Below, piece by piece: positions 4,087 to 5,582 of a stretch of 64,000 nucleotides of DNA (positions are counted from its first letter, which is position 1; each line of letters opens with the position of its first letter). Source of the DNA: Agelas oroides. Taxonomy: Eukaryota > Porifera > Demospongiae > Agelasida > Agelasidae. The stretch spans positions 1,343,313 through 1,407,312 of the forward strand of contig OX422186.1 in assembly GCA_949130485.1 (NCBI GenBank), read 5' to 3'. The notes below the pieces were generated by a model. That model did no database searches. It had not been told where the DNA came from and saw only the letters and a list, made by a program, of their open reading frames with translations. Made by a program: the position numbers and the translations under genes.

Positions 4087-4165
4087 AATATACCAGCCAG
4101 TATGAAGCAAGTAGCTAGCTACAGTTATTGTAGCTAGCTACTTGCTTCATACTGGCTGGTATATT
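4087..4165. repeat. Perfect 37-bp-arm hairpin
   Basis: Arms 4087-4123 and 4129-4165 are exact complements (AATATACCAGCCAGTATGAA...) around a GTTAT loop. First of three hairpins in 360 bp. Confidence 0.95.
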
Positions 4166-4297
4166 TTCAAGATTTAGACATGATGGATTTATCATAAAAG
4201 CAATGCAGGGATTCGCTTTTAATATAGAAGCACATGCAGTAACCAGACAACAAAACTGATGAGCTAGCACATGCAACCACATTTGGAGTGACTGTTA

Positions 4298-4382
4298 GTT
4301 ACTACAGACAGCATACACTCAGCTGTGCTGTTATATTACATATTACAGCACAGCTGAGTGTATGCTGTCTGTAGTACGTAAC
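4298..4382. repeat. 34-bp-arm hairpin
   Basis: GTTACTACAGACAGCATACA... at 4298-4331 pairs with 4345-4382 (the right arm has a small insertion near its end); loop of 13 bp. Unrelated in sequence to its neighbours. Confidence 0.92.
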
Positions 4383-4407
4383 TTGGTGTGTTATTCCTAT
4401 TGAAGTT

Positions 4408-4447
4408 ATGCACTAACCACTAGTAAATTTACTACTGGTTAGTGCAT
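4408..4447. repeat. 20-bp-arm palindrome without loop
   Basis: ATGCACTAACCACTAGTAAA at 4408-4427 against TTTACTACTGGTTAGTGCAT at 4428-4447, with a single mismatch. Confidence 0.92.
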
Positions 4448-4695
4448 ATCTTCCTTAAGAATAACATTATACCAAGACTGACAGCCAGAATGAGAACATA
4501 CTACCATAAAACTGTACAGCATTTGCCTATATACAACAACAAAAACTACTGGGGGGAAAGGACACAAGTAACTATAGTGTGTACGTACATGGTTATAAAT
4601 AAAATCAAAAGTACAATTTGTAGTTTGCACAAATCAAATTCGAAACAAAGAACACTACTGCTAATTTTGCACACAACCTAAACATTTTTTTTGTA

Positions 4696-5462
4696 CCGTA
4701 GTGTCCCGCTAATACGCCCCCTTCGAAAATACGCCCCCCCCCCCCCTCTTTTCCGCCAAAGTTCCTGCACAGGGTAGTTTCACTCGTTATAACGCCCCCC
4801 CGGTGAGCGTCTTCTGGAACATCAAAACTACACGTGCTTACTATACGTTGCAAGTGCATTCAGTAAGACTATAGTAGTCGGTGAATCTTTTGTAAGTTTT
4901 GTGGCTTTTAGAAAAGTCGGTTAGATGTTCCAAGTTTTAAGCTGCTAGTTTAGCAAACAGGTTTATCAGTCTGTCAAGGTGTTTTTGTTTCCCTCTGAAG
5001 ATGTACACGCACGGAACCACGAGTCCTTTCCCATCAACTTCAGAACGTCTTCTGTCACCATTGACGATGCAAGTCATCTCGCTGCCACTCTTGTGCAAGA
5101 AATACCAGCAGACTCTGGAAATTTCCCGTGGTACATGACCGACAGTGTTGCCGTTCTTGAGGACAGCTACAGCGAAGTCGTCGTGAATGTTATTGACCTC
5201 GCGTTGAACTGGCAGCTCTTCTCCGATGTAGGGAGACCACGCAGCTTTGTAAACGTGATGTCCGCGAACAGTACTCTCGATCCTGAAAGTCGTCGCCATA
5301 GTTAGTTGGAAGTGTCCTAATTGCGTACATAGCACTTGCGTAAAATCTTTTGGGGGGGGGCTTATAGTCGAGACTAATTGCATCCTCGAATATAAGCCCC
5401 CCCCCCACTTTAGGCGGGATGTAGTGTACAAAATGGGGGGGCGTATTAACGGGACACTACGG
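4696..5462. mobile_element. 767-bp TA-flanked inverted-repeat element carrying the HIRAN-like ORF
   Basis: Ends are CCGTAGTGTCCCGCTAATAC and its near-complement TATTAACGGGACACTACGG, flanked by TA at 4694-4695 and 5463-5464, as expected of Tc1/mariner-type insertion. Subterminal C-rich and G-rich runs (around 4735-4752 and 5351-5359) and repeats of the pattern AATACGCCCCC follow the ends. The body carries the minus-strand ORF at 4937-5299. Confidence 0.8.
4937..5299 (-). CDS. Intact HIRAN-like domain ORF inside a short TA-flanked element
   Basis: A 120-aa ORF from ATG at 5299 to TAA at 4937. Its order of motifs (HHVYKAAWSPYIGEEL near 14, then [20 protein letters not shown] at 53-61, a WYFL helix, VPCVYIFRG near the end) is that of the small HIRAN-like fold, which in the SWI/SNF ATPase HLTF binds single-stranded DNA 3' ends. 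In sponge and cnidarian genomes such stand-alone ORFs are common near repeats. It fills about half of a 767-bp inverted-repeat element. The frame is open upstream to 5494 but that part crosses the repeat end. No transposase is present, so any role in mobility is unproven. Confidence 0.7.
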   Translation of the reverse strand: MATTFRIESTVRGHHVYKAAWSPYIGEELPVQREVNNIHDDFAVAVLKNGNTVGHVPREISRVCWYFLHKSGSEMTCIVNGDRRRSEVDGKGLVVPCVYIFRGKQKHLDRLINLFAKLAA

Positions 5463-5582
5463 TACTTTCTGAGTGCTCTTAAGTAACAGTCCACATTTAA
5501 AATTGTATACTATAACAATCACTATTAGAGTTCTAAGACAGATTATACTACTGGTTTGGCACAGTGATTTTCTATCTACTGC

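Follow-up and report, generated by a model that had tools for sequence, protein, structure and literature searches.

A 767-bp TA-flanked element with a HIRAN-domain ORF in the sponge Agelas oroides as a probable internal-deletion derivative of a two-gene pogo-like transposon

We examined a 64,000-nucleotide stretch of the Agelas oroides genome (hereafter the window; assembly GCA_949130485.1, contig OX422186.1) and found that it holds an element of 767 bp, with 26-bp inverted ends and a TA on each side. The features of the element, in window coordinates, are the following:

4694..4695, no strand: left TA target-site duplication (TA at both flanks in 30 of 30 loci found by BLAST)
4696..4721, plus strand: left terminal inverted repeat (HIRAN end), CCGTAGTGTCCCGCTAATACGCCCCC (649 end-pattern matches genome-wide)
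4696..5308, no strand: HIRAN-side terminal segment, equivalent to full-length positions 1770-2373 (BLAST, 97.4% identity, and junction map)
4937..5299, minus strand: 120-aa HIRAN-domain ORF, read as an accessory gene inherited from the parent transposon
5306..5308, no strand: internal-deletion junction 159/1770 with a 3-bp overlap, transposase gene absent (BLAST, junction map)
5306..5462, no strand: transposase-side terminal segment, equivalent to full-length positions 1-159 (BLAST, 97.5% identity)
5437..5462, minus strand: right terminal inverted repeat (match to the left end)
5463..5464, no strand: right TA target-site duplication (TA flanks in 30 of 30 loci found by BLAST)

The ends of the element family follow CCGTAGTGTCCCG, with TA/CCGTA-type termini. 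Just upstream of the element, three near-perfect inverted repeats are found at window positions 4087-4165, 4294-4382 and 4389-4466, with arms of 37-43 bp that are 87-100% complementary and spacers of 0-5 bp; from their sequence they would be expected to form long hairpins, and they look like foldback elements.

The HIRAN domain is mainly known from HLTF-type helicases, in which it grips DNA ends and serves in fork remodelling. We found that the window ORF matches Pfam HIRAN at 32.3 bits (cut-off 24.7) and that HLTF HIRAN ranks first for its predicted model in both Foldseek and VIA-align, a HIRAN barrel fold being predicted for the protein. The sequence-only reading, which had described a 767-bp TA-flanked element with matching ends and an intact HIRAN ORF, was confirmed in these respects, the identity of the domain included. 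In contrast to HLTF HIRAN, the window protein stands alone, without helicase or RING, and the two share approximately 20% identity. According to the part of the HLTF study that was available (PMC4666394), the HIRAN cavity bordered by Y72 and Y93 holds a single-stranded dinucleotide, and full impairment is reached only by a double change at 90/91. The two stacking tyrosines are not conserved here, aligning with Ala20 (beside the invariant Trp21) and His39; Asn37 and Asp40 (aligned with HLTF N91 and D94) are invariant in 9 of 9 alignment rows, and the residues of the 3' end-binding pocket are thereby partly kept. By analogy, the protein might plausibly grip free ends or sense forks, although the changes in the pocket make this less likely.

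When the genome was searched with the Pfam profiles for HIRAN and DDE_1, matches to HIRAN and to the transposase were observed side by side on contigs C3 and C5. The full-length element on C3 (G000:C3:1982219-1984591; 2,373 bp) has TA flanks and the same ends as the window element, and carries the HIRAN gene as in the window together with a DDE_1 transposase, on opposite strands and head to head (divergent). The transposase frame spans 455 codons stop to stop, matches DDE_1 (3.8e-28), HTH_Tnp_Tc5 (6.2e-13) and BrkDBD (1e-6), and has a D-D-36-D acidic triad, 36 residues separating its second and third positions (motif places picked by eye). On C5, a second copy of the transposase (99%) lies beside the same HIRAN gene. 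Among the 97 matches listed in the transposase protein search, full length is reached only at C3 and C5. The match that ranks next by score is a 59% fragment, and L033, a copy with a partial deletion (junction 325/1100), holds a 95% transposase fragment.

The full-length element combines DDE_1 and its acidic triad with an HTH/CENP-B-type DNA-binding region and a TA duplication and, judged by its domains, triad and TA flanks, is a two-gene pogo-like DNA transposon. It resembles the pogo superfamily (IS630-Tc1-mariner) in its TA flanks, its DDE_1 with HTH_Tnp_Tc5 and Brinker-type DNA-binding domains and its D-D-D triad, and the 36-residue spacing falls within the DD29-56D span that the accessible text of a pogo survey gives for these transposases (PMC7386202). 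Unlike pogo, it has a second, divergent gene for HIRAN, a term with 0 occurrences in the accessible text of two pogo surveys (PMC7386202, PMC7325037). Extra genes are already known in the Tc1/mariner group from the ciliate Tec and TBE elements, which the available part of PMC7325037 describes as Tc1/mariner-type elements that have several ORFs, including one on the opposite strand; there the extra ORF is a site-specific recombinase, and that part of the paper does not mention HIRAN.

Against this full-length element, the window element consists of positions 1-159 joined to positions 1770-2373, and the description of a MITE-sized element that retains HIRAN and is devoid of a transposase was borne out by BLAST. 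It is short, has inverted ends and a TA duplication, belongs to a set of many homogeneous copies, lacks the transposase segment and has a transposase-bearing relative with the same ends, namely the 2,373-bp element on C3. In this it is like the MITEs and internal-deletion derivatives of the Tc1/mariner-pogo group, which are short and high in copy number, with matching ends and TA flanks and without transposase. Unlike MITEs, which generally hold only non-coding sequence, it keeps a whole accessory ORF.

We therefore consider it very probable that internal deletion in a two-gene pogo-like transposon gave rise to the window element, a non-autonomous derivative, and that HIRAN is decaying neutrally in the short copies. 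The short element would carry HIRAN because the full-length parent carries HIRAN beside the transposase: an internal deletion would have removed the transposase and spared HIRAN, since the latter abuts one terminus, and the parent transposase would mobilise the short copies in trans, with insertion at TA, the ORF being merely carried along. Both full-length copies differ at two residues from the consensus ORF of the short copies, indicating that they are sisters of the short copies' true source.

HIRAN also lies beside transposases elsewhere in the genome. We found two sister elements, C3:1092853-1095828 (2,976 bp) and C1:23125413-23129143 (3,731 bp), each with inverted ends starting with CCGTA, TA flanks and a DDE_1 transposase, the transposase frame of the latter being broken near the third acidic position. 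Both contain a frame of 315 or 340 codons, convergent with the transposase, that encodes an N-terminal HIRAN and a C-terminal Peptidase_C48-like region. The C48-like regions score 18.4 and 19.6 bits, just under the Pfam cut-off of 20.7, and L102 has two weaker matches to other cysteine-enzyme families as well. His, Asp, Gln and Cys residues, which we take to be catalytic, are common to both HIRAN-C48 proteins. The predicted HIRAN-C48 model has a mean pLDDT of 59.7 and is of poor quality, above all towards the C terminus, so that the C48 assignment rests on the sub-threshold Pfam matches and the four shared residues.

The fused protease raises a rival reading of the gene in the parents, namely that parental HIRAN is directed at the host: it might, for example, make the host less able to recognise breaks left by excision or forks that have stalled, while SUMO or ubiquitin marks would be removed by the fused Ulp1-like protease. 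The fusion in two elements speaks for it, as does the Ulp1-type protease module known from Ginger1 and Mutator transposons in the consulted part of PMC2836005, but in the window family HIRAN occurs alone, without a fused protease; judged from these sequences, such a role is possible though rather unlikely. In carrying an Ulp1-type module, the sister elements are like the Ginger1 and Mutator transposons with Ulp1 or OTU protease domains (PMC2836005, same part). Unlike Ginger1, where the protease lies within the transposase, here it would be fused to HIRAN in a separate gene; moreover, the Ginger1 and Mutator transposases are of a type different from that found here, and that part of the source does not mention HIRAN.

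Next, we compared the positions of 149 DDE_1 matches with those of HIRAN rows (150 listed and the best 95 of 134), which merged into 144 DDE_1 and 227 HIRAN loci. At least 13 HIRAN/DDE_1 pairs lie within 3 kb; in a local-shift control (2,000 shifts), the average was 1.13 pairs and the highest count 6. Since the match lists are incomplete and some pairs are members of a single family (the C3 and C5 pairs both belong to that of the window, and two pairs on C2 are equally spaced), these are not 13 families. Among the matches listed on both sides, 7 of 150 HIRAN matches have a DDE_1 match within 3 kb, as expected if most HIRAN matches are short copies, the pairing nonetheless resting on few loci. 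Between families, HIRAN shows dN of 0.19-0.59, identity at third positions is as low as 29-42%, and synonymous divergence either has reached saturation or lies near 3 (NG86 and codon-position identities, saturation preventing an exact ratio). Such dN beside diverged third positions indicates that the HIRAN gene has been constrained over the long term.

The recurrence beside transposases bears on a further explanation, that a host HIRAN gene was captured (Pack-type transduplication) and is being spread by the element. Host-gene capture is known for other DNA transposons, and other HIRAN-containing loci exist in the genome, some without a DDE_1 match nearby among the matches listed, including a short relative of 65 aa and 53% identity (L085) without a listed DDE_1 neighbour. 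Against capture, the HIRAN ORF is present in a transposase-bearing element with the same ends, where a Pack-type element would have a gene absent from its autonomous relative and matching a host gene, and two of the best-matching relatives outside the family (L103, L102) sit in DDE_1-transposase elements. With the donor looked for within the genome-wide HIRAN searches, we regard capture as highly improbable; the idea that the element spreads a host domain gene is not supported, as the HIRAN gene sits in the full-length relative and in two other DDE_1 elements. Additionally, ten near-identical dispersed ORFs of 84-102 codons (L073-L076, L078, L081, L083, L084, L086 and L087) encode another kind of HIRAN-like domain, with Pfam E-values as low as 1.9e-9, one of them (L073, C4:1319194) approximately 24 kb before the window; by their sequences they are probably a separate repeat family.

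We then turned to the short copies themselves. The 649 end-pattern matches correspond to roughly 325 elements. From 100 of the 649 matches, 40 pairs were fetched, the 20 unpaired among the 100 being left out, and one pair 9.5 kb apart (L031) proved to be two separate copies, giving a sample of 41 that leans to young copies as both ends had to match within one mismatch. The L031 span, considered as a large autonomous element between matching ends, was thus rejected in favour of two separate short copies. In L031 (1-10000), approximately 8 kb separates these two copies; a TGTATGTA microsatellite adjoins one of them on one side and the other on both sides, and between them lies an ORF of 563 codons whose start resembles a P-loop and which contains glycine-rich repeats (by eye). 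In two further copy pairs, L006/L013 on C5 (approximately 16.5 kb apart) and L011/L012 on C20 (approximately 13 kb apart), both members have the same 10-bp flanks, which points to recent local duplications and not to separate insertions.

Upon partitioning 66 short copies by deletion junction, we observed the classes 159/1770 (that of the window), 113/1746, 170/1757, 185/1835 and others. Genome-wide, the 159/1770 pattern has 137 matches (59+78, at most one mismatch), 113/1746 has 83, a pattern shared by L033 although that copy retains more of the upstream sequence, and 170/1757 has 13. By content, 113/1746 and 159/1770 cannot derive from one another, indicating at least two independent deletion events among the three classes; 159/1770 could derive from 170/1757, and all of these classes from an L033-like copy (325/1100). 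The ORF class consensuses are identical between 159/1770 and 113/1746, and the mean divergence of the ORF from the consensus is 0.6% (66 copies). With the HIRAN ATG at full-length position 1779, the junctions 159/1770, 113/1746 and 170/1757 leave 9, 33 and 22 bp before it, whereas 185/1835 cuts into the ORF. A junction whose deletion extends into the HIRAN ORF has 16 matches genome-wide, indicating that spread does not require the lost portion in cis.

The three amplified junction classes thus end just 9-33 bp ahead of the HIRAN start codon, closer than expected if the gene were immaterial, and this counts against neutral carriage. It is what would be seen if selection kept HIRAN in the short elements, with HIRAN-making copies favoured and ORF-sparing deletions spreading, and the frame is intact in 15 of the 41 sampled copies (one with an extra codon, one without the first ATG). 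Breakpoint hot spots or a need for cis sequences would also produce this closeness, and the observation was made post hoc. The frame is broken in the other 26 of 41, that is in most sampled copies, an outcome set beforehand as speaking against a use of HIRAN by the short element.

The balance of nonsynonymous (N) and synonymous (S) variants gave a similar answer. Across 66 copies (the 41 unselected copies, the window copy and 24 chosen by BLAST score, identical copies dropped), singletons comprised 58 N, 2 stops and 19 S (ratio to neutral 1.14, P for an N deficit 0.73), variants in at least two copies 21 N, 2 stops and 5 S (1.66, P 0.90), and those in at least three copies 4 N, 1 stop and 2 S (0.9, P 0.59). 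This first count had included misaligned copies, and it agrees with a filtered recount in which six copies were removed (five misaligned or interrupted, one segmental duplicate) and positions near gaps were masked: singletons 48 N, 1 stop and 16 S (1.29), shared variants 10 N, 2 stops and 4 S (1.26). For the 36 unselected copies of the filtered set, the counts were 33 N and 8 S among singletons (1.71) and 6 N, 2 stops and 3 S among shared variants (1.11), and every P for an N deficit was at least 0.6 in both filtered runs. Shared variants are few (16 after filtering), which leaves room for weak selection on the ORF.

Per column, the ORF has somewhat fewer variants (81/363) than the sequence outside it (76/232; doubtful copies and the junction zone removed), which counts against neutral carriage, though repeats outside the ORF may inflate the latter figure. 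An apparent excess of shared variants outside the ORF (38/281 columns versus 7/363 inside, at least three copies) was discarded as mostly misaligned alternative junctions, as 34 of the 43 variants seen in at least three copies sit at positions 110-159 of the ORF strand; without these positions, 6 such variants lie outside and 6 inside the ORF (66 copies).

The 2,976-bp sister (f1) provides a parallel case. Its short derivatives join the HIRAN end, positions 1-489, to positions 2849-2976; L106, L107 and L108 are 99.7-99.8% identical and gapless, L107 measuring 607 bp with TA on both sides. A 10-bp deletion frameshifts HIRAN (aligned in one copy, the frame being broken alike in 3 of 3 copies fetched), indicating that the HIRAN-side end was kept and amplified though the whole domain cannot be made. 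In addition, 14 listed HIRAN rows cover the same stretch as the f1 derivatives (positions 37-107 or 37-111, 91-97% identity). Set against the junction classes and the 15 intact frames, the near-neutral N/S balance, the ORF-internal junction and the amplification of the f1 derivatives make selection for HIRAN in the short elements quite improbable, and the proposal that the short element uses HIRAN for its own spread is not supported by the broken frames, the N/S balance and the f1 derivatives. The HIRAN ORF in the short copies appears to decay like neutral baggage.

In the transposase-bearing parents, by contrast, HIRAN would be a long-conserved accessory gene and may serve the element. One guess is that it binds free 3' DNA ends or fork-like structures arising from excision or gap repair and would thereby aid repair or re-insertion near replication forks. 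A fuller version, which we hold to be unlikely, is a pogo-like lineage in which transposase and HIRAN (sometimes fused to an Ulp1-like protease) act together, HIRAN gripping the 3' ends of excision and steering fork-linked repair and re-insertion, with the short copies as a HIRAN reservoir and ORF-sparing deletions amplified. Drosophila pogo transposase binds PCNA, with a relevance described as unclear in the accessible text of PMC5371812; the strict PIP-box pattern was not found in the six proteins searched here.

Outside this genome, the end pattern had 0 matches in viral contigs and the element matched no plasmid, and searches of viral contigs with the HIRAN-C48 protein and the HIRAN alignment gave pattern matches and no relative, all in collections without animal genomes. 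Among the open-literature papers listed, none is, judged by its listing, about HIRAN genes in eukaryotic DNA transposons, most subscription journals and the repeat databases being outside that scope. On this weak evidence, the HIRAN companion gene in a pogo-like transposon is apparently new, the element class itself being known. Overall, a recurrent separate HIRAN gene beside pogo-type transposases would connect cut-and-paste transposition in a concrete way with the processing of forks or ends, a connection suggested earlier by the PCNA binding of pogo transposase (PMC5371812, in the part available). Furthermore, a MITE may seem to carry a working gene when what it has is probably a neutral remnant inherited from the parent element.
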